Shown: piece by piece, positions 183 through 23,620 of the stretch | Layout: each line of letters starts with the position of its first letter | Position numbering within the stretch: the first letter of the stretch is position 1 | Origin: a virus | Length of the DNA: 28,906 nt | Virus record (IMG/VR): IMGVR_UViG_3300036770_000508 | Coordinates: 1-28,906 of that record | Reading direction: 5' to 3' (one strand) | The notes under the pieces: generated by a model | Seen by the model: only the letters and a program-made list of their open reading frames with translations | Told to the model about the DNA's origin: nothing | Database searches by the model: none | Program-made: the position numbers and the translations under genes

Positions 183-3100
183 ATGTCTTTTAACGGTTCC
201 GGCACGTTCGTCATCAACTCGGCGGGTCAACCCGTCGTCGCTAACACCGTCATTTCGGCCACGACGTTCAATGCGCTAACGTCTGACCTTGCTAACGGCT
301 TGTCTACCTGTATCACCAAAGATGGGCAGACGACGCCGACCGCCAACATCCCAATGGGCGGGTTCAAGATCACCAACCTTGCTACCGGCACGGCTGCCTC
401 GGACGCGGCTACGGTCGCGCAGATTCAAAGCAACGGCGCTGCTCTTGTTACGGTAACGGGTACGGATACGCTGACGGGTACGCTGACGCCTGCATTGGTC
501 GCCTACGTCACGGGCGCTGTGTACTACTTTGTCGCCCCGGCTACGAACACGGGGGCAGTCACGCTCAACATTGACACCCTCGGCGCTAAAAACGTCACCC
601 GCGATGGCACGACCGCCCTTGTGGCCGGTGACATTGTTTCGGGCGAAATGGTTGCTGTTGTGTATGACGGCACGCGCTTCCAACTAATTAGCCCGGTCAA
701 CAGTTTCACTAACCTCAACGTCTCTGGCACGCTGACAGTAGCCGGTGCAACGACCCTTAACGGCAACCTGCAAGTCGGCAACGCGGCTGCAGATACGGTT
801 AACTTTCAAGCAAGCGGTTGGACGCTGACCAACAACGTCTCGGTCACGGGAACGTGGGCTGACATCGGCACGATTACGACTGCCGACATCAACGGTGGAA
901 CCATTGACGGCACGACCATTGGCGGCGGCACGGCTGCTGCGGGTACGTTTACGACCGTTGGCGCAACGACCGGCAACATCACAACCGTCAACGCAACGAC
1001 CGTAGACGCAACCAACCTTGAAGTAACCAACCTCAAAGCCAAGGACGGTACTGCCGCAGGCTCTATTGCCGACTCTACAGGCGTGGTCACGCTGAACAGC
1101 GTTGTAGCAACCACCGCCGACATCAACGGCGGCACGATTGACGCCACCACTATCGGTGGATCGTCACCCGCTGTGGGTAACTTTACGACCGTCTCGGCTG
1201 CCTCGGCGGTCTTTACGACGGCGACCATTACCACGGTCAATACGACGACTCTTGACCTGACCAACCTTGAAGTCACGAACATCAAGGCTAAAGACGGCAC
1301 GGCGTCCATGACGATTGACGACGCCACGGGCAAGGTCAACGTTACAACGGTTTCTGCCGCCTCCATGAACGCGGCAGTTGCAGCCATCACGACCGGATCG
1401 GTTGCCAACCTCACGGCTACGGCTGCCTCGGTTGCCAGCATGAACGCAGGCGTTGCGTTGCTAACGACTGCCACGGTTACGACGCTAAACGCCTCGGGCG
1501 CATCTATTGCCTCGGCCAACATCGGCAACCTTCAGTTTACGGCTGCCTCTATCGCCTCCATCAACGCGGGCGTGGCGGTTATCAACAACCTGACGGCCAC
1601 AAGTGCCTCGGTAGCCTCTGCCAACGTCGGTGTGGCGCTAATCACCACAGGCACGGTAACAAACCTGACTGCAACAGGTGCCAGCGTAGCGTCGGCTAAC
1701 GTCGGCACGGCGGTCATTACGGGGCTGACGGTTACGGGCGCGTCCATCGCCTCGGTCAACGCAGGTACGGCCACGCTCTCGGGCAACCTCACACTTAACG
1801 GCGGCACCGCCAACGGCGTGCTGTATCTGAACGGCAGCAAGGTGGCGACGAGTGGGAGTGCGTTGGTATTTGACAGTGTTAATTTGGACATTGGCGTTGG
1901 CGGATATTACGGAACGCTTAATGTAAAGCGCTATTCAACTTCTCCGTATTCAACCATCACGATGACCGATCCGGCAGACGCTGCGAATGAAGTCGGCATC
2001 TATCTTCGTTCAACCGGAACAAATCCGGTTGGGCTTTCTTCTGCTGGCGCTCCCATCGCGTTTTATTTAGGCGGCCCCGGAACAACCGAAGGCATGCGCC
2101 TCACCTCCACGGGGTTGGGCATCGGGACGAGTTCGCCGTCGTATCCACTGCAAGTACGTCGCGCAGGTGGTGCAGGATCGCTTGGCGTCAGCATTGATTC
2201 TGTAGGCTCTACCGATAGAACTGTTCAGTACTTCTCCATCCAAGACGATGCTGCGGGAGTTGGCGCGGGTCACGCTTTCTATTACCGCGCAGCAAGCAGT
2301 ACCACCGATACGCTTGGCTTTATGCTTGATGAGGGCGGCAACGTCGGCATCGGGACGAGTTCGCCTAGTGCAAAACTTTCGGTTTCTAGCGGAAACATTT
2401 TTGTTGATAACGCAAACGGCTCTGTCATTGTCAGAAACGCTGATACGACTAATCAGCAGCAGATTCGTTTGCGGATGTCTGGAACGGATGGAATTCTTGA
2501 CACTACCCGTGCGGCAGGCACAGCCACAAATTTGATTTTTGGCACAGAAGGCGTAGAGCGTGCGCGTATTGATTCAAACGGCAACCTCGGCATCGGGACT
2601 AGTTCGCCAGACGGCCCGCTCCAAGTGTCTTTTGCCGATGCTGAAACTTCGCAGTTTAACGCTGGTGCCGCTGTTGCGTACTTAACAAATACAAACACAA
2701 CCAACAACAACTGGGCGCAGATTTTTTGGACAGATTCAGATGGCGGTGCTGCTGCCGCTGCATTTGGCGCGCAATACACAGATCACACAAACGATTATGC
2801 AGCATTGTCGTTCTCTACACGCGGGACTAGCGGACTTGGCGAACGCGCCCGCATCACGAGCGGGGGCTATGGTAAGTTTAGTAATGATGGAACGTACACA
2901 AACAGCGCCGGTTCATATCACGAATTTAGACAAAGTTCGCAAACTGAAGAAGGTATGATTTTGCGAACCACTAACGCAAGTTATAGTGGAAACTCGTTAC
3001 TTGTTGCGGCAGATAGAAACACTACAAACAATTCATTTTACGCTTTTGGGTATTACAACTTCGCGGCTAGTGCATACAAATTACGCATCGCGGATTCTGG

Positions 3101-5414: not shown

Positions 5415-5962
5415 GGTAGTGCCTCCACGCTGTAGGAGACTGACGGAGATTTCCAATCCCTCGGAACATCCCCGCCAATCCATGACGGGTCTACCCACAA
5501 CAGCCTGTTGTTGGGGTACGCAATCCATTGCCCGCCGTCTAACGCGATAATGTGATGGTCTTTGCTCTGATCGCTCACCTCTGCCCAGCCACCATTAGCC
5601 CAGAATACGGTAAAAAGATACACGCCCGGTCGTTTCACGCCGTCGCGTCCAATTCCCTGCACGCGGTGATTACGCAAAAACTGCACCTCGCGCACCTCGC
5701 AGAACCGGCTAAAGGAATCCCACCAGCACGCAATCTGAAGGCTTATAGGGTCACATGGCTTGCTGCATAGGGCATGGATAGGGATACGCGCCCATTGCGC
5801 CCCTTGCGCCGTCATAATCTGAAACATAGGTACGCGCATAGGTTCGGCGCGAAAGCCAAAAACGGTACATTCGGTGAATTCGCCGTGACCTTTCTGCTGG
5901 TCGTGTAAAAACTCATTACGAACGTAAGCGGTTGTGTACGGCGTATCTACCCAAAAACTCAT
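5411..5962 (-). CDS. Conserved phage hypothetical protein, 183 residues
   Basis: The ATG start at 5962 overlaps the preceding stop as ATGA, with GAGGGG five bases before it. The protein is rich in Trp and aromatic residues and looks mainly beta (FRAEPMRVPMFQIMTAQG; VYLFTVFWANGG; WIAYPNNRLLWVDPSW). It includes a Cys/His stretch (HALCSKPCDPISLQIACWW). No signal peptide, Walker box or nuclease motif is visible. Proteins with this general look occur in early operons of environmental podoviruses, but I know no function. Its place among recombination genes suggests early expression. Confidence 0.75.
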   Translation of the reverse strand: MSFWVDTPYTTAYVRNEFLHDQQKGHGEFTECTVFGFRAEPMRVPMFQIMTAQGAQWARIPIHALCSKPCDPISLQIACWWDSFSRFCEVREVQFLRNHRVQGIGRDGVKRPGVYLFTVFWANGGWAEVSDQSKDHHIIALDGGQWIAYPNNRLLWVDPSWIGGDVPRDWKSPSVSYSVEALP

Positions 5963-6246
5963 ACCAGCCCCTCTTTTTCTAATTGCACAATAGTTCTCGC
6001 CATGCCGTCGTAATGGGCTAGGCGTAGTTCGTCGCGTGACAGCCCGCTTTTATGTGTTCTGCCGTCTATTTCGTCGTGGCAAGCGTTACACGCCCACGCT
6101 CCAAGCAGATCGGGTGATTTCATGCCCATGCCGCTAATGCCCGCTAAACGGATATGCGCTAACACGACGGTTTCGCTGTTGAAATTGCATACGCCGGGTA
6201 TGCGTACGGTACAGCCGCGTCCCTTTGCCTCTTTGCGCAGGCTCAC
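5959..6246 (-). CDS. Putative nuclease, DUF1364 / YbcO family
   Basis: A 95-residue protein with a GTG start at 6246 (GTGA overlap with the upstream stop). It matches the DUF1364 pattern: LRKEAKGRGCTVRIPGVCN at the start, HIRLAGISGMG, then LLGAWACNACHDEIDGR. The Cys and His residues (C12, C20, H31, C53, C56, H57, H65) fit a zinc-bound HNH/beta-beta-alpha metal nuclease, as proposed for E. coli prophage YbcO. It may cut branched or specific DNA during phage recombination, as lambda ninR genes do. It lies two genes after the NinB-like gene, which supports that setting. Direct nuclease activity is inferred from the family. Confidence 0.82.
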   Translation of the reverse strand: MSLRKEAKGRGCTVRIPGVCNFNSETVVLAHIRLAGISGMGMKSPDLLGAWACNACHDEIDGRTHKSGLSRDELRLAHYDGMARTIVQLEKEGLV

Positions 6247-6317
6247 CGCAGCACCAACAGCATAAATGCCATGCCCATGATTAGCCCTAACAAGTAGGCT
6301 GTGTCTGGTTCAACCAT
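6243..6317 (-). CDS. 24-residue membrane micropeptide
   Basis: A tiny frame that exactly fills the gap between the NinB-like gene and the DUF1364 gene. Its ATG at 6317 overlaps the upstream stop (ATGGTTGA) and its stop overlaps the next GTG (GTGA). GGAG lies seven bases before the ATG. After MVEPDTAY the peptide is almost entirely hydrophobic (Leu, Ile, Met, Gly, Phe) and ends in Arg, so it is a single short transmembrane segment. Translation is well supported by coupling and the ribosome-binding site. Function is unknown; phage membrane micropeptides can act on host envelope or defence proteins. Confidence 0.6.
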   Translation of the reverse strand: MVEPDTAYLLGLIMGMAFMLLVLR

Positions 6318-6714
6318 ATACAGGCTCCGGTATCACAATGCCCATGTATTCACAGCGAATCTCTAAAAACATCAAATACTCGCTGAATTCTTGTTTGGTT
6401 AATTTGCTAGATCGTTTGAGCGGGCGCATACGTTTGCGTCCAAACCCTTCTAGCGTTTCCCAACCAAAGCACTCCCCAAGAAAGTATTCGTGCAGGTCGT
6501 CGCGTGTCCATCCTGCCAACGCCTCACCGCCGCCCTCTAGAATCGCTGGGTATGCCACGCCCCACAAAAAGCGGTTCTGTTGATCGGTGCGCGGCTTGCG
6601 CCATTCCAACACCTCTATGCACCACGCACGGTCGGGAGATAACCCCTGCACCATACGCGCAGCCGCCGCGGCTAACTGCTCGGGCGTCGTGCCTTTAGGG
6701 AATATGCGCTTCAC
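6310..6714 (-). CDS. NinB-like recombination protein
   Basis: A 134-residue protein using GTG at 6714, preceded by AAGGAG with a seven-base gap. The frame extends further upstream, but that part lies inside the glycosyltransferase gene and lacks a site. The core matches lambda NinB-type proteins: a helical N-terminus (PEQLAAAAARMVQGLSPDR), a strand ending in WRKPRTDQQNRFLWG, then a long helix and KLTKQEFSEYLMFLE. NinB (Orf family) binds single-stranded DNA and helps load recombinases, partly replacing RecFOR. Here it shares an operon with ERF and an SSB-like gene, which fits that role. It overlaps the gene before it by 20 bases. Confidence 0.8.
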   Translation of the reverse strand: MKRIFPKGTTPEQLAAAAARMVQGLSPDRAWCIEVLEWRKPRTDQQNRFLWGVAYPAILEGGGEALAGWTRDDLHEYFLGECFGWETLEGFGRKRMRPLKRSSKLTKQEFSEYLMFLEIRCEYMGIVIPEPVYG

Positions 6715-7363
6715 GCATCCACTCCTTGCCGTATTCCACATCCGTCCAATCGGCAAACCACGGGCCACCGCGGGTGAAATGTACGGCTATGGGGTTCGGG
6801 CATTGGTCGCGTGTATACCAGCCTTCAAGGTAATTCCACGCTATCGGCAACTCCCCGATTACGTCATCGGTGAGCCAATTAAAACGGTGTAGGTACATAC
6901 CCGTCTGTGTGTTGACCATCTCGGGCGTCAGAGCCTTGACTTGTTCGTGGCCGCAGTTGATAAACATAAACGATGACCAGTTTTTCCGTGGATATTGATG
7001 CTGCGTTTTGTTGTCCATCTTGACGGTTTCCGTCGGCCTGTAGTTGTGCTTTACAAGAAAGCACGCTTTTGCCCCGTCGGCGTAGTCCAGCAGTCCCGCA
7101 ATATCCCCCCTGAAAAGAAAATCGCAATCCACAAATACCGCCCAGCCGGTGTATCCGTTGAGATACGGCGTCAGGAAGCGGGTAAACGAAAACTCCGTAG
7201 ACGACAGCGGATCAGTCTCTCGCCAATAAAGGCCACGATCCCGAAGTTCTGACTGCTTAATAGGCTGAACGTCTACCGGGATGCTGGCGTGTTTTAGGAT
7301 GCTCTTACGGCACACCTGATACGCGATGTCCTCGCGGCTATCCCAACCGATAAATACCTTCAT
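6695..7363 (-). CDS. Glycosyltransferase, GT-A fold (GT8-like)
   Basis: A 222-residue protein beginning MKVFIGWDSREDIAY, a nucleotide-sugar-binding start often seen in small phage glycosyltransferases. The metal-binding DxD is Asp79-Cys-Asp81 in AVFVDCDFLF. The C-terminal half has aromatic acceptor-site-like segments (NYLEGWYTRD) and HFTRGGPWF. Such enzymes transfer a sugar from a nucleotide donor to DNA, protein or host glycan. In an early operon they often modify phage DNA or the host surface. ATG 7363 is coupled to the previous stop (ATGA) and preceded by GAGG. Donor and acceptor cannot be read from sequence. Confidence 0.78.
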   Translation of the reverse strand: MKVFIGWDSREDIAYQVCRKSILKHASIPVDVQPIKQSELRDRGLYWRETDPLSSTEFSFTRFLTPYLNGYTGWAVFVDCDFLFRGDIAGLLDYADGAKACFLVKHNYRPTETVKMDNKTQHQYPRKNWSSFMFINCGHEQVKALTPEMVNTQTGMYLHRFNWLTDDVIGELPIAWNYLEGWYTRDQCPNPIAVHFTRGGPWFADWTDVEYGKEWMREAHIP

Positions 7364-7830
7364 AGTCGTTCCTCAAAATCTATGTACCGCCAGCCCAGAT
7401 ACTCCGGTGTCACGGCGTAAACGTCATAGTCATAGCCACGCTCCCGATCCACTATTTTTTGCACACGCCAATCGGCAAACGTCGTCTTAACGTCCACCAG
7501 CGCCGCTACGGTCATGCTGGCGTTGACGATGTAATAGTAGTCAGGGCGGGGGTCAGCAGCATCAAACGACTTCTTGGCGCAGATAGCGGCTTTCTCAAAC
7601 GGCCACGCTTCATACCCAAAGTCATGCTTGATGTGCTTTACCTCTATCCGTTTGCCTGATGCGTATATATCGCCCTTGTCGGCGTATTCCGCACGGTCGG
7701 CAAAGTCACGCGTTAAACGACGCTTCGGCAACGTGACCGTATGCCCTAGGTTTAGCAGGTAAGTCGCCACCACAATCTCTGCGGGGCGACTAGCCCGAAA
7801 CCTAGCCTCAAAGTCAGAATGGGGTGTCAA
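7360..7830 (-). CDS. Candidate PD-(D/E)XK-fold nuclease
   Basis: A 156-residue protein. The pattern Glu18 (N-terminal helix), Asp54 (DKGDIYA), then Glu63-Val-Lys65 (RIEVKH) matches the E...D...ExK active site of restriction-like nucleases, with the expected strand-turn-strand geometry. Lys/His residues after the motif and a basic stretch (LPKRRLTRDF) could contact DNA. The start is TTG at 7830, inside the end of the SSB-like gene (17-base overlap), so translation is probably coupled; a later GTG is possible. Lying beside SSB-like and ERF genes, it could process DNA ends for annealing. The fold assignment is inference from the motif. Confidence 0.6.
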   Translation of the reverse strand: MTPHSDFEARFRASRPAEIVVATYLLNLGHTVTLPKRRLTRDFADRAEYADKGDIYASGKRIEVKHIKHDFGYEAWPFEKAAICAKKSFDAADPRPDYYYIVNASMTVAALVDVKTTFADWRVQKIVDRERGYDYDVYAVTPEYLGWRYIDFEERL

Positions 7831-8098
7831 GATCGTCCCAATTTGTTTCAGTTATCTGCGGCTTTTTGGTTGGTTGGTGCTGCGGCTCGCCCGTACGCGC
7901 TAACTTTCCCTCGCCCTTGGGTTCAATTTTAATGCTCATGTATTTGTCGCCTGTCTTTTGGCTAGATTTAATCCAAGCCGACAGGTTGTAATCCACGTTA
8001 TTGATGACTGCCGAGCCACGGTAGTCGGGGCGTTTCTCGTTGCCGTCCTTGTTGTTCTTAAACAAGACGCCTTTCATGTTCGGGTCGTAATCAGGCAC
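7814..8098 (-). CDS. Single-stranded DNA-binding-like protein with SSB-type acidic tip
   Basis: A 94-residue protein with a small beta-rich core (RPDYRGSAVINNVDYNLSAW and KYMSIKIEPK), reminiscent of phage OB-fold and DUF736-like proteins. A Pro/Gln/Thr-rich linker follows, and the chain ends NWDDLDTPF. That end resembles the DDDIPF tip through which bacterial SSB recruits partner proteins. GTG 8098 is preceded by AAGGAG at seven bases and overlaps the ERF stop. Placed right after ERF, it probably binds single-stranded DNA during recombination. Family membership is inference; the acidic tip is seen directly. Confidence 0.65.
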   Translation of the reverse strand: MPDYDPNMKGVLFKNNKDGNEKRPDYRGSAVINNVDYNLSAWIKSSQKTGDKYMSIKIEPKGEGKLARTGEPQHQPTKKPQITETNWDDLDTPF

Positions 8099-8738
8099 GG
8101 TGTTTCTCCTTGGTAATTTGGATGTACTTCTTGATGGCAGACCGTTCCTTTGCCGTCATGGCATTGGCTACGGCGATATACAGGTCGTGGTCAGGGTTGA
8201 CGAGTTCGTGGACGGCCAACACCGCTAGTGCGATGTCGTACTCATCTGCGTCCATGTCAAACGCGGCGCGAAACTGGTTTACGAAAATGTCCCGTTTGGC
8301 GGGGTCTACGTCTTGCCCTAGATCGCCCCTAGGATCAACGGTGAGCGGCTTGCGGCCTTGGGCTGCCTCTGCGTCGTCGTCAATCTGTGCAAGCCCCACA
8401 ATGGCTGCTAATGCGTAACGGCGGGCATACGTCAAACCAGAGCCTTGAGCCTGCGGACTAGCGTCCTTGGTTAGCACCGGCATTTGCCCTGCAATCCATT
8501 CGCCCGAGGCATGGGCCAGCGTCGTAACCAGCATCAAACCTTGCTCGGTCATCTGCGTGGTTTGGATCACCGACAAACCGTTAGCGGCTAACTGCTTGCG
8601 GCAGGCGTCCCAACACGACGCTAGGTCAGCGTACTTGGACTTAAAGAACGGGTTGCTGCTGTCTTTCAGCGCACCCGTAATGTCGGCTTGTGCCTTGGAC
8701 AGCGCGGCGGCCAATGCGCCTAAAGTTTCACTCTGCAT
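8091..8738 (-). CDS. erf: ERF-family single-strand annealing recombinase
   Basis: A 215-residue protein with the ERF signature: NPFFKSKYADLAS near residue 30, a long N-terminal helix with Ala/Gln, and GSGLTYARRYALAAIVGL in the middle. ERF proteins (P22 Erf type) form rings that bind single-stranded DNA and anneal complementary strands, supporting genome circularisation and recombination independent of RecA. The C-terminal part (residues about 145-215) is helical and less conserved, as in the family. ATG 8738 has GGAG seven bases upstream, within the last codons of the previous gene. Confidence 0.9.
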   Translation of the reverse strand: MQSETLGALAAALSKAQADITGALKDSSNPFFKSKYADLASCWDACRKQLAANGLSVIQTTQMTEQGLMLVTTLAHASGEWIAGQMPVLTKDASPQAQGSGLTYARRYALAAIVGLAQIDDDAEAAQGRKPLTVDPRGDLGQDVDPAKRDIFVNQFRAAFDMDADEYDIALAVLAVHELVNPDHDLYIAVANAMTAKERSAIKKYIQITKEKHRA

Positions 8739-8868: not shown

Positions 8869-8980
8869 GGCTGGCTCGCTCCTCTGCTGGGGTGCAGCCA
8901 CCATCGCCGCACGGGTCAAGGATGGCTGCTGTGGCGTATAGCACTACAAGCAGGATGGCTTGGGGTAACCAGCGGCTCAT
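8858..8980 (-). CDS. Small membrane or exported peptide, 40 residues
   Basis: The ATG at 8980 overlaps the preceding stop as TAATG and is preceded by GGGAGG with an eight-base gap, one of the best ribosome-binding sites in the operon. Residues about 4-20 are hydrophobic (LPQAILLVVLYATAAIL). A Cys-containing polar part follows (DPCGDGGC). It could be a membrane-anchored or exported micropeptide; no clear lipobox is present. It overlaps the 46-residue gene by 11 bases. Function unknown. Confidence 0.6.
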   Translation of the reverse strand: MSRWLPQAILLVVLYATAAILDPCGDGGCTPAEERASHAR

Positions 8981-9258
8981 TAGTAATCCTCCCCATACGG
9001 GCCGTTCATCAAGGCATCTTGCGTGGCGATTTCCTCAAGTTCAAAGATGGCATCTGCGCCAAGATCGCAAATGTCTAACTTGATGTCGTGGTTAAGCGAT
9101 GAAGCGGCTTTATCGCTATCAAGGAAAATACCGATTAGGTCGGCAGCCTCCAAGATGATGCCGCCATCGGTGTCCTGCGTGTACTCCACGCGCACCTCAA
9201 ACTTGTTGCCGAGGGCGTAGAACGTACCGAAACCGTGGAATGTGTCTTTGCGAGGCAT
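8980..9258 (-). CDS. First gene of the leftward operon, unknown function, 92 residues
   Basis: Start set at ATG 9258, where AGGAG lies eight bases upstream. The frame stays open to 9291, but that would place the start at the predicted transcript start without a site. The protein starts MPRKDTFHGFGTFYALGNKF and has a beta-rich N-terminal half, an acidic middle (YTQDTDGGIILEAADLIG) and an acidic helical end. It is the first gene after the leftward promoter, with a leader of about 35 bases, so it should be expressed very early. No known family is recognised. Confidence 0.72.
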   Translation of the reverse strand: MPRKDTFHGFGTFYALGNKFEVRVEYTQDTDGGIILEAADLIGIFLDSDKAASSLNHDIKLDICDLGADAIFELEEIATQDALMNGPYGEDY

Positions 9259-9299
9259 ATCTGTTGCTCCTGTCTGTGGTTTGTTAATCAACGAGGCAT

Positions 9300-9328
9300 A
9301 GGATAGTTACCTTGACAGGCCATGTCAA
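9300..9328 (-). promoter_or_regulatory. Leftward promoter of the recombination operon
   Basis: Reading the minus strand, TTGACA (9328-9323) is followed after exactly 17 bases by TATCCT (9305-9300). This gives a consensus -35 and a four-of-six -10 box. The transcript would start near 9293 and reach the AGGAG/ATG of the first leftward gene after about 35 bases. Its -35 lies inside the spacer of the rightward promoter, so the two overlap and should compete. Confidence 0.75.
9312..9328. promoter_or_regulatory. Operator candidate: perfect inverted repeat over both -35 boxes
   Basis: TTGACA-GGCCA-TGTCAA is a perfect 6-bp inverted repeat with a 5-bp centre. Each arm is the -35 box of one of the two divergent promoters. 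A dimer bound here would block both. The small HTH protein encoded immediately to the right is the obvious candidate ligand; this is inference. No second full copy of the palindrome was found in the window. Confidence 0.6.
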
Positions 9329-9340
9329 CCCCCCTATCCT
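9312..9340 (+). promoter_or_regulatory. Rightward promoter of the repressor-methyltransferase operon
   Basis: TTGACA (9312-9317), a 17-base spacer and TATCCT (9335-9340), the same boxes and spacing as the leftward promoter. Transcription should start near 9347, within about two bases of ATG 9349, so the HTH gene would be read from a leaderless or almost leaderless mRNA. Confidence 0.75.
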
Positions 9341-9348
9341 CCCGTCCC

Positions 9349-9510
9349 ATGAAACCGCAACAACTGATTAAGCAATACGGCTCCCAATATGCTGTTGCCA
9401 AGGCTTTCGGGGTTACCCGAGCAGCGGTGCAGCAATGGGTTAAGACAGGCAAAGTTCCTGATGCAAGACGCTGGCAGTACGAGGCGGGCAAAGTTGCCCG
9501 ACCCCGTTAA
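9349..9510 (+). CDS. Small Cro/YdaS-like helix-turn-helix regulator
   Basis: A 53-residue protein that is almost only a DNA-binding domain. Residues about 12-32 (SQYAVAKAFGVTRAAVQQWV) form a helix-turn-helix of the Cro/YdaS type, followed by a basic end (RRWQYEAGKVARPR). I chose ATG 9349 because the alternative ATG 9322 lies between the -35 and -10 boxes and cannot be in the predicted transcript. No Shine-Dalgarno site precedes 9349, which fits leaderless translation as for lambda cI from PRM. It probably binds the adjacent palindrome and controls both promoters, including its own. The stop overlaps the methyltransferase start (TAATG). Confidence 0.8.
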   Translation: MKPQQLIKQYGSQYAVAKAFGVTRAAVQQWVKTGKVPDARRWQYEAGKVARPR

Positions 9511-10832
9511 TGCGCTACGGAAGCGTTTGCAGCGGCGTGGAGGCGGCTACCGTGGCGTGGCATCCGTTGGGATGGCAAGCCGCTTGGTATAGCGAAATAG
9601 AGCCTTTCCCGTCTGCCGTACTTAAACACCATTACCCCACCGTCCCTAACTATGGGGACATGACCCAATACGAGGCATGGCCTGATGAACCAATCAACCT
9701 TCTTGTGGGAGGAACCCCTTGCCAATCCTTCAGCGTCGCAGGACTGCGAAAAGGACTGGCAGACCCGCGTGGCAACCTCATGCTTACCTACGGCGCAATT
9801 GCTAAACGCTATCGCCCCGAGTGGCTGGTATGGGAGAACGTCCCCGGTGTCTTGTCGTCTAACGGAGGACGGGATTTTGGAACCTTCCTTGGAATGTTGG
9901 CAGAACTCGGGTATGGGTTCGCCTACCGGGTTCTTGACGCTCAATACTTCGGAGTGGCCCAGCGCCGCCGCCGTGTGTTCGTTGTCGGACACCTTGGAAA
10001 CTGGCAACGTGCCGCAGCGGTTTTATTTGAGCGCCACAGCTTGCAAGGGCATCTTGCGCCGAGCAGAGAAACGCGGCAAGACGCTGCCAAGTGCCTTACA
10101 GCAAGCCTTGGAATGCGTCTTGACCCAACATCAGAAACCTTTCCCATAGCTCCTACGTTGCAAGCCCACGACGGAGCAAAGTGGGGAAGCAACCAATGGG
10201 TTGATGAAGGTAAAGCCATTGTGGAGCGCGTTGCAGAAACTTTAATGGCATCAGATCACAAAGGTCCGGGTCATAACCGTGATCACAACTTTGTGGCGCA
10301 GCCTGTCCCATATGACTTCTTCCAAATCACCGCCCCTGTAAACCGTCAATCACGGGAACCGGGCGATCCGTGCCACACCCTTGCGCGAGATAACGCCGCA
10401 CACGCCACCATTGTTCAACCTACTTACGGCATCCCCGGTAATTGGATCGGCAGACAGCCAGAAAATGGCGGCAATGCCGTTGAGCCAATGCACGATGTAT
10501 CGCCGTGCTTAACCAAAACGGATCGGCATGGGGTGGCGCAACCAACAGCATCAGCAGAAACGGCAGGCACATTACGAGCAAACGCTGGCAGCGGATTCCG
10601 TAGCAACGGGACGCCGGTAGAAGGCGTAGCAATCCAAGCAATGCAAGTCCGCCGCCTCACGCCCGTTGAGTGCGAGCGCCTGCAAGGCTTCCCAGACAAT
10701 TACACCAACATCCCTTGGCGTAACAAAGCAGAGGCACCTGACGGCCCACGTTACAAGGCAATGGGTAACAGCATGGCTGTACCTGTCATGCGTTGGATCG
10801 GTGAGCGTATTGCTGCGGTAGAGGCGTTATGA
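9510..10832 (+). CDS. dcm: DNA cytosine-C5 methyltransferase
   Basis: A 440-residue enzyme that transfers a methyl group from SAM to carbon 5 of cytosine. Motifs in order: I, GSVCSGVEAAT (residues 4-14); IV, GGTPCQSFS with catalytic Cys71; VI, WENVPG with Glu109; VIII, QRRRRVFVVG (about 151-160); and the C-terminal RRLTPVECERLQGFPDNYT and KAMGNSMAVPV (motifs IX/X). The region about 200-370 is the target-recognition part. No partner restriction nuclease is adjacent, so it is probably an orphan phage methylase guarding phage DNA against host restriction or affecting expression. It is coupled to the HTH gene by TAATG and probably co-transcribed. Target sequence cannot be read. The symbol is generic. 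Confidence 0.93.
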   Translation: MRYGSVCSGVEAATVAWHPLGWQAAWYSEIEPFPSAVLKHHYPTVPNYGDMTQYEAWPDEPINLLVGGTPCQSFSVAGLRKGLADPRGNLMLTYGAIAKRYRPEWLVWENVPGVLSSNGGRDFGTFLGMLAELGYGFAYRVLDAQYFGVAQRRRRVFVVGHLGNWQRAAAVLFERHSLQGHLAPSRETRQDAAKCLTASLGMRLDPTSETFPIAPTLQAHDGAKWGSNQWVDEGKAIVERVAETLMASDHKGPGHNRDHNFVAQPVPYDFFQITAPVNRQSREPGDPCHTLARDNAAHATIVQPTYGIPGNWIGRQPENGGNAVEPMHDVSPCLTKTDRHGVAQPTASAETAGTLRANAGSGFRSNGTPVEGVAIQAMQVRRLTPVECERLQGFPDNYTNIPWRNKAEAPDGPRYKAMGNSMAVPVMRWIGERIAAVEAL

Positions 10833-11726: not shown

Positions 11727-12043
11727 GATACAAGGCGAGACGGGATGCGAACGATGGCCTTATTGGCCGGGCGCTGTCCCTAGCCGGGTTCACCGTCCAC
11801 GATTACGCCTCAAACGGCGGCGTTCCAGATCGTCTCGTCGTGCGGAATCTGCCCGACGGAACACCGTGGGTGTGCTGGGTAGAAATCAAGGTAGAAAAAG
11901 GAAAACTACGCCCGAGCCAAGAAAGGTTCCAAGCGATATTTGAGCCACGCGGGGAGTTTTACGTTGCGCGTGACCCCGAAGCCACGGTGCGCGAATTGAT
12001 GGAACGGTATCTCGCTGCCATCAAGCCGGAGCAGTTACGGTAG
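11723..12043 (+). CDS. VRR-NUC domain nuclease
   Basis: A 106-residue protein that is essentially one VRR-NUC domain of the PD-(D/E)XK superfamily. The active-site pattern is Asp36 in NGGVPDRLVV and Glu54-Ile-Lys56 in WVEIKVEKGKLRPSQERF, the latter being a family hallmark. Stand-alone phage VRR-NUC proteins are thought to resolve branched DNA such as Holliday junctions, which fits concatemer processing before packaging. GAGG lies six bases before ATG 11723. The last 23 bases overlap the end of a convergent glycosyltransferase gene on the other strand. Confidence 0.88.
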   Translation: MRYKARRDANDGLIGRALSLAGFTVHDYASNGGVPDRLVVRNLPDGTPWVCWVEIKVEKGKLRPSQERFQAIFEPRGEFYVARDPEATVRELMERYLAAIKPEQLR

Positions 12044-12689
12044 GCATGAGTGCCTTTCGGACGCCCTTGTAATGCACGATAGCCGGATCAGGATATTGCT
12101 TCAGATACTCGGGCAAACAGGCATAGTGCGATTCGGGCAAGTCCTGCACCTTGACGCGCTTACTGTATTCCCGCAAAACCTCTTGATCGCCGTACCACAC
12201 GCAAAACTTATCCGGCAGGACGTTGTACATCTCGGCAAGGTCAGCCCACACGCCCCAATCGGACGTAATGGTGCAGCAGCCGACGTAGGGGTAAACCTGA
12301 TCCAGCGTCTTACCCTCGTACTCGCTGTAATCCTGACCGCGCTGACGCGGGTTAAAGATGGCGTCACGGTTAAATTCACGGCGCGTCATCGCTACCGGCC
12401 CCCAGCCTTTAAGCAACGCGCTAGGGCTAATCGGATGCCGCACGATCATGTCGGTATCCATGTACATAGCAGGCTCGGTCAACCCAAGTTCCGCAAAGGC
12501 ATTAGTGCGCCATTGCATCAAGAACTGCCGATTGCCCTGCGTCACAAATACCCGCGAGACACCGGGTACGGCTGGCGTCTTGTCGTCTGTGACCTGAATA
12601 ATGGTCGCATCCGGGTTGTGGGCGCGAATGGAGAACACCATTGCGGTTGGCATGGCGATGTCGTCGCCAACATGAAAGAAAACAAACAT
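12021..12689 (-). CDS. Second glycosyltransferase, GT-A fold (GT8-like)
   Basis: A 222-residue protein with a DxD metal motif Asp78-Thr-Asp80 in AMYMDTDMIV, a donor-binding start (MFVFFHVGDDIAMPTAMVF) and a C-terminal HYKG typical of GT8-like enzymes (PAIVHYKGVRK). It has the same length as the glycosyltransferase at 6695-7363 but little obvious similarity beyond the DxD region, so a recent duplication is unlikely. It probably modifies a phage or host glycan, protein or DNA. It is the only leftward gene right of 9.3 kb and is divergent from a SAM methyltransferase with 11 bases between starts. TATAGT just before its ATG could be a -10 box, but no good -35 is seen. Confidence 0.75.
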   Translation of the reverse strand: MFVFFHVGDDIAMPTAMVFSIRAHNPDATIIQVTDDKTPAVPGVSRVFVTQGNRQFLMQWRTNAFAELGLTEPAMYMDTDMIVRHPISPSALLKGWGPVAMTRREFNRDAIFNPRQRGQDYSEYEGKTLDQVYPYVGCCTITSDWGVWADLAEMYNVLPDKFCVWYGDQEVLREYSKRVKVQDLPESHYACLPEYLKQYPDPAIVHYKGVRKALMPTVTAPA

Positions 12690-22846: not shown

Positions 22847-23620
22847 ATGCAACCTCTGGAAATCACGGTGCAGGCGGCGGGTACGGAGGAGGAACTTTGT
22901 TCCAATATCCGCTCGGCGCTTGCCCGTGGTTTGCCAGAACTGGCCCTCGCTCCCACCAAACACGATGGCAACATGGTGTTGGTGGCGAGCGGGTGGTCTA
23001 TGCCTGATTTCATAGGCGAAATCAAAGCGCACCGTAAAGCCGGTCGCCCGATTGTGGCGATTAAAGCGGCGCATGATTTCTTGTGTGAAAACGGCGTTGA
23101 ACCTGATTTATGGGTCAACCTTGACCCGCGTGACCGCACGAGCGGTATTCAGCGGCTAAACGACCATACCATCTATATGCCAGCCTCGCGCTGCCCGCCT
23201 TCCACGTTTGACTACCTCAAAGGTAGGAAAATGTTGTTGTGGCACTCATGGGCGCCGGGGCCGGAAATGGAAGCCATTGGCCCGGGCAAGGTTGCCGTGG
23301 GCGGTGGCACCACATCGGGGCTACGCGCCGTCAACATCGGCTACTTGCTCGGATTCCGTCATTTCATCATGTACGGCTACGACAGTTGCAACCGAGCCGA
23401 CGGCTTAAAGCGCTTTACGGGCGAATATACCGGCCCGTCTGTGGACATCTGGGTTGGCGGCCCCGAGGGCAAGAAGTTCAACTGCAACATGGCAATGGCG
23501 CAGCAAGCCAACGAGTTTCAAAAACTGTTCTCGGTCATGGCCGATATAACGGTAGACGTTAAAGGGCCGGGACTGATTGCTGAAATCATGCGTGTGCGCG
23601 ACGAGCGGAAAGCAGCCTGA
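22847..23620 (+). CDS. DUF115-like glycosyltransferase-fold protein
   Basis: A 257-residue protein starting two bases after the decoration gene. It carries NMVLVASGWSMPDFIGEI (Rossmann-like), IVAIKAAHDFLCENGVEPDL, an NLDPRDRTS motif, and VAVGGGTTSGLRAVNIGYLL followed by FIMYGYDSC. These match DUF115 / MptE-like proteins, whose relatives act in glycan and flagellin modification and in pterin synthesis. Phages often carry such a gene among head genes. It could modify a virion protein or a host sugar; which one is unknown. The stop overlaps the next start (TGATG). Confidence 0.72.
   Translation: MQPLEITVQAAGTEEELCSNIRSALARGLPELALAPTKHDGNMVLVASGWSMPDFIGEIKAHRKAGRPIVAIKAAHDFLCENGVEPDLWVNLDPRDRTSGIQRLNDHTIYMPASRCPPSTFDYLKGRKMLLWHSWAPGPEMEAIGPGKVAVGGGTTSGLRAVNIGYLLGFRHFIMYGYDSCNRADGLKRFTGEYTGPSVDIWVGGPEGKKFNCNMAMAQQANEFQKLFSVMADITVDVKGPGLIAEIMRVRDERKAA

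Follow-up and report, generated by a model that had tools for sequence, protein, structure and literature searches.

The virus record IMGVR_UViG_3300036770_000508 of IMG/VR, a linear-classed sequence of 28,906 bases that we analysed in its entirety (the window), carries at positions 9300-9340 a 41-base-pair (bp) mirror in which two predicted divergent promoters interpenetrate around one palindrome. We consider it probable that the palindrome is a single operator for the Cro-like protein encoded next to it, that two overlapping sigma-70 promoters use its arms as their -35 boxes, and that Cro shuts off both early operons and itself. The element reads AGGATA GTTACC TTGACA GGCCA TGTCAA CCCCCC TATCCT, exactly as the initial annotation had it, with TTGACA, a 17-bp spacer and TATCCT on both strands. 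The predicted rightward promoter has its -35 box at 9312-9317 and its -10 box at 9335-9340 (both +), and the leftward one has its -35 box at 9323-9328 and its -10 box at 9300-9305 (both -). At the sequence level the two cores share base pairs, each -35 box lying inside the spacer of the other promoter, and the two boxes are the arms of the 17-bp palindrome TTGACA-GGCCA-TGTCAA (9312-9328), the proposed Cro site. With the 5-bp loop the half-sites are spaced by 11 bp, close to one turn of the helix, and each -35 box holds one of them; since half-sites and boxes coincide, a bound Cro dimer would block both.

Relatives of the locus were retrieved through their proteins, not through the DNA motif. 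The 83 distinct combinations of upstream region and Cro used for comparison are drawn from all loci collected, including those fetched with the motif, and 37 of them have the recognition helix TRAAVQQW, identical to that of the window. The full mirror is kept in all 37 upstream regions, which supports the earlier proposal of divergent promoters sharing one palindrome whose arms are the -35 boxes: the boxes always come in the order -10, -35, -35, -10, with a gap of 6 bp on either side. The arms are TTGACA and TGTCAA in 36 of the 37, and the remaining one is a single base off; the left arm is invariant and the right arm is intact in those 36. The rightward -10 box is always TATCCT or TATCAT, and by pairs of -10 boxes there are 34 regions with TATCCT/TATCCT, two with TATCAT/TATCAT and one mixed. 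The inner loop is free to vary, with 12 different sequences, 5 bp long in 28 regions and 6 bp in 9. Within the boxes 21 of 24 columns are invariant, versus 5 of 41 third codon positions in cro. The run of Cs between TGTCAA and the rightward -10 box (9329-9334) is also conserved like a promoter box, being CCCCCC or GCCCCC in most sequences.

In all 37 regions the rightward -10 box ends 6-8 nucleotides (nt) before the ATG of cro, which predicts a cro message with little or no leader, and we place the expected rightward transcript start at 9346-9348 (+), 1-3 nt 5' of the ATG. The leftward transcript would start at 9292-9293 (-). A CGTTGA(C/T) element (TCAACG on the + strand, 9288-9293) is conserved at this expected start, some 6-7 nt past the leftward -10 box. 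Since it is kept across Cro classes I-V, described below, it does not depend on which Cro allele is present; it could act as an initial transcribed sequence or be bound by some other factor.

The arrangement is not due to chance. The mirror is unique within the window even at 3 mismatches, with 0 expected from 100 shuffles; the palindrome is present in a single copy, and no further operator stands above chance in the window at 3 mismatches. A sigma-70-like scan of the region from 7 to 12 kb reports solely these two sites, one per strand, with 17-bp spacers and 10/12 matches. A total of two sites is not above that of shuffled sequence (2.9), so the consensus scan alone proves nothing, and it is from the conservation, which also covers the leftward -10 box, that we infer promoter activity. 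We searched for the mirror in IMG/VR (2.9 million contigs) and in 84,980 bacterial and archaeal genomes. The degenerate pattern ANNATA-N6-TTGACA-N5-TGTCAA-N6-TATNNT occurs in 66 IMG/VR contigs and its reversed version in none. From a reading of the matches, about 40 of the 66 contigs are members of this phage group, and the rest come from a few other phage lineages and have no neighbouring regulator gene. A version with a 6-bp loop is found in 12 IMG/VR contigs, all of this phage group. Among the prokaryote genomes the mirror occurs at only 21 places, mostly in Firmicutes/Clostridia and Patescibacteria. By eye, the mirrors lacking an adjacent regulator gene include double promoters ahead of T4-like single-stranded DNA-binding and DNA polymerase-like genes, and others flanked by a holin-like gene and a gene resembling a phi29-type packaging ATPase (loci L133, L154, L156, L175; L135, L139, L160, L164, L165, L169, L179, L181, L182, L184, L188, L190-L192; L141-L143, L150).

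Two other structural interpretations of the mirror were rejected. An RNA hairpin or terminator is discarded on geometry, not by folding: with the palindrome flanked by the predicted starts, neither transcript would include it. A bidirectional promoter with a shared symmetric -10 box does not describe the element either, which has separate -10 boxes at 9300-9305 and 9335-9340.

What connects the palindrome to Cro is that its type follows the recognition helix of the neighbouring protein. With class I Cro, TTGACA-N4..6-TGTCAA is present in 42 of 42 combinations (within 1 mismatch). With class II Cro (helix TKGAVSQW), the same slot has GTTTAG-N4-CTAAAC in 27 of 27, and with class III Cro (helix KPPAVSRW) it has TTAACC..GGTTAA in 11 of 12 (within 2 mismatches). 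At the cut-offs applied there are zero cross-matches among the three palindromes, and the palindromes of the other Cro classes, found at the same position, do not resemble -35 boxes. The class I pattern was derived from the window, and the class II and III patterns were first read off some of the sequences tested, which makes the covariation test partly descriptive; the protein searches alone already gave the same picture. The palindrome thus overlies both predicted -35 boxes and tracks the Cro type, and from this covariation the 53-residue helix-turn-helix (HTH) protein is very likely its ligand. The first leftward gene, in turn, is 83-96% identical in DNA across Cro classes. In the class III locus L003 it is 95.7% identical to that of the window, above every class I relative listed, despite the different Cro; by this comparison of sequences cro and its operator are exchanged as a unit and move as a cassette.

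Relatives that keep both genes and have lost the symmetry, which the initial annotation had named as evidence against its proposal, do exist, namely classes II-V and the loci L120-L125 and L257. They bear differently on the two halves of the proposal. In classes II and III the palindrome is altered jointly with the Cro type. In L120-L125 and L257 the palindrome is kept and it is the rightward promoter that has moved: it is apparently TTGTCA-17-TATCCT/TATTCT/TATTAT, which puts both -35 boxes on the right arm, while the left arm, no longer a -35 box, is still TTTACA or TTGACA. Being either kept or changed together with Cro, the palindrome seems indispensable, and the mirrored promoters look like one solution among several. 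The C-run mostly persists in L120-L125, where the -10 box has moved. Class II loci (for example L022, L031 and L263) have a perfect GTTTAG-N4-CTAAAC plus a looser second copy nearer to cro, apparently so that each -10 box is covered by one copy, which would solve the same control problem in another way. Class III loci (for example L003, L004 and L013) have an extra 300-400 bp between the left gene and cro, probably a leftward gene.

The cro-like gene (9349-9510, +) encodes a protein of 53 amino acids in the P22_Cro family (Pfam PF14549, E-value 7.7e-11), with a score of 42.0 bits over a curated cut-off of 30.2. Its AlphaFold model (pLDDT 91) has four helices in an all-alpha Cro fold. The best PDB folds for this model are the N15 Cro entries 2hin and 6on0 (TMq 0.82 to 6on0_A), which cover the protein with and without operator DNA, and P22 Cro is matched at rank 7. 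The Foldseek E-values are weak (1.5e-3), as expected at 53 residues.

The phage is probably lytic, as the lysogeny genes searched for were not found in the window and ten related contigs (11 contigs of 24-36.5 kb, with no completeness given). In these, no tyrosine integrase was found in a search that did not extend to serine integrases and plasmid partition genes, no Peptidase_S24 protein (the CI/C2-type repressor) was found by a search that a repressor without an S24 domain could escape. A search with HTH_3 gave no match over its cut-off. The gene opposite cro encodes a 92-residue protein with no Pfam or PHROG match rather than a recognisable CI-type repressor. A temperate, lambda-like immunity switch was rejected on the lack of a tyrosine integrase and an S24 repressor in the 11 contigs.

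We propose that the locus would be an early-transcription hub, in which two equivalently built host sigma-70 promoters face away from each other and interpenetrate. On infection, the polymerase would fire leftward, into the recombination genes (Erf, single-strand DNA-binding (SSB), NinB and YbcO), or rightward, into cro, the methyltransferase and then a long array of rightward genes, and never both at one moment. Cro would build up from its almost leaderless mRNA until a dimer over the palindrome blocked both -35 boxes, turning both directions off, cro included. Such a circuit would be an autorepressing timer working by negative feedback and co-repression, not a toggle.

The initial annotation had read the same DNA as a two-way switch, in which mutual exclusion of polymerases picks left or right and Cro would bias the choice. 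The exclusion part of that idea is plausible by geometry: with each -35 box in the other's spacer, simultaneous occupation is sterically unlikely and the promoters should exclude each other, as has been described for the overlap of Pc and Pr in pLS20 (PMC4207663). In E. coli bidirectional promoters, however, competition is negligible at basal activity and is seen only under strong activation of one direction (PMC12825309). The toggle part is not established. A single symmetric operator over both -35 boxes would repress both directions together and gives no direction-specific handle, relatives such as L120-L125 and L257 have the palindrome without the mirror, and the searches for an integrase and an S24 repressor in the 11 contigs, and that with HTH_3, revealed no second regulator, so negative feedback with co-repression fits better. 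We regard a choice-making switch as unlikely. 

There are also points that weigh against a single Cro operator. Loops of 5 and 6 bp stand beside nearly identical Cro proteins (L094 and L096 differ by two substitutions), and this variation is easier to square with promoter spacers of 17 and 18 bp than with a rigid dimer, which would want one spacing; a weak or flexible Cro dimer would reconcile the two. The relatives are phylogenetically linked, so that the 42, 27 and 12 cases counted above are not independent events. The Cro proteins of PY54 and phiKO2 repress only the opposing gene and not cro (PMC4488713, PMC4997575). The loop lengths could also be taken to mean that there is no operator, only two -35 boxes that happen to be symmetric and are conserved as promoters; TTGACA is the sigma-70 -35 consensus, the variation matches the spacer tolerance, and T4-like and phi29-like phages have mirrors with no regulator gene adjacent. 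Such a happenstance does not account for a palindrome that tracks the helix class of Cro, for a left arm retained in L120-L125 and L257 where it is not a -35 box, or for the other, non--35-like palindromes that other Cro classes have in the same place, and we think it very unlikely. That the palindrome serves a host regulator or another phage regulator is barely credible: other small regulators may have genes elsewhere in the phage or in its host, but the operator type changes with the Cro allele and not with the rest of the locus. We retain the single Cro operator as the probable explanation.

The leftward operon begins with the 92-residue gene (8980-9258, -), preceded by AGGAG at 9267-9271; it has 63 IMG/VR relatives, no Pfam or PHROG match, and no match in 50,697 phage records. 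A 63-residue open reading frame (ORF) is listed between it and the gene for an Erf-like single-stranded DNA annealing protein (8091-8738, -; Pfam ERF 7.3e-23, phrog_2324 5.9e-37). Then come genes for an SSB-like protein (7814-8098, -; phrog_7364 5.8e-10), a NinB/Orf-like recombination mediator (6310-6768, -; phrog_72 7.2e-10) and a YbcO-like HNH nuclease (5959-6246, -; Pfam YbcO 4.2e-37). Inside this operon there is also a 222-residue ORF (6695-7363, -) with a weak match to glycosyltransferase family 8. On the other side, a C5-cytosine DNA methyltransferase gene (9510-10832, +; Pfam DNA_methylase 2.7e-52) overlaps the stop of cro by one base, and past it are a terminase and other late-type genes, mostly rightward. 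Another ORF of 222 residues (12021-12689, -), with no Pfam match, is set against a run of rightward genes, and the structural genes include one for a protein with an MptE-like domain (22847-23620, +; Pfam 1.6e-13). The closest terminase is that of Rhodoferax phage P26218 (46% identity), which shares the terminase family, yet no Cro- or Erf-like gene is annotated there. In Pseudoalteromonas phages PHS21 and AL an HTH gene is likewise part of a divergent layout, but no TTGACA palindrome was seen in the stretches read. By analogy with the nearest named phages, a freshwater habitat and a podovirus type (P22/P26218-like) are suggested.

In principle, divergent phage promoters that overlap and share an operator are already known, as in TP901-1, N15 and pLS20. 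TP901-1, of the lactococcal P335 phages, also has a small HTH protein and divergent operons, with PR and PL around a central operator OR. Unlike here, in the TP901-1 sequence that we scanned (NC_002747) the -35 boxes are 31 bp apart and back to back, the cores are not interleaved and the boxes are not operator arms; with CI, MOR and an integrase, it is a lysogeny switch. As a member of the P22 Cro family by sequence, with a match to 1rzs, the 53-residue protein can be compared with P22 Cro, which works with C2 at the multi-operator OR; here a single operator is proposed, and the 11 contigs yielded no CI/C2-like S24 repressor. The immB regions of the telomere phages N15, phiKO2 and PY54 provide the closest solved Cro structures (2hin, 6on0). 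In the N15 immB record, -35 boxes are annotated on opposite strands at 236-241 (+) and 248-253 (-) and are spanned by the right OL operator (237-252, under the label OR2), but these overlapping promoters are putative and their boxes weak and far from consensus. A prophage repressor, CB or CI, is present, the operators are of the form T-A-N10-T-A, and the Cro site is OR3, which lies upstream of cB/cI; repression of cro itself is reported not to occur. PY54 makes leaderless mRNAs from both cro and cI, and its Cro recognises one palindrome of 16 bp (PMC4488713). In pLS20, the divergent sigma-A promoters Pc and Pr interpenetrate and are controlled by one regulator (PMC4207663); there, however, the -10 and -35 boxes of one coincide with the -35 and -10 boxes of the other, one promoter is weak, and looping occurs between two multi-site operators. 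The E. coli bidirectional promoters of Warman, Grainger and colleagues also owe divergent transcription to symmetry, with polymerases competing in principle, but they share a -10 box (PMC12825309), whereas here the -35 boxes are central and the -10 boxes at the outer ends.

We found no report on the switch of this phage group in the openly accessible literature. What appears to be new is that the predicted -35 boxes are exactly the proposed operator half-sites, that this arrangement is conserved, and that apparently lytic phages exchange Cro-operator cassettes. The element is very compact, the -35 boxes of two promoters doubling as half-sites of one proposed operator, and it occurs in seemingly lytic environmental phages in which no lysogeny repressor was found. 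The allelic series, with three or more Cro helices in one slot, each with its own palindrome, is a data set for the DNA recognition code of P22-type Cro proteins, and it makes it possible to test for immunity groups among lytic phages. In the same genomic slot at least three Cro/operator pairs (I, II and III) are exchanged as units, and one metagenome (3300042905) holds contigs of all three classes. It is conceivable, though we think it unlikely, that strictly lytic phages fall into heteroimmunity-like groups defined by the cassette. If they do, the Cro made by the phage already infecting a cell would turn off the two early promoters of a superinfector of the same class, but not those of another class, and phages competing with each other would be driven to diversify the Cro/operator pair.
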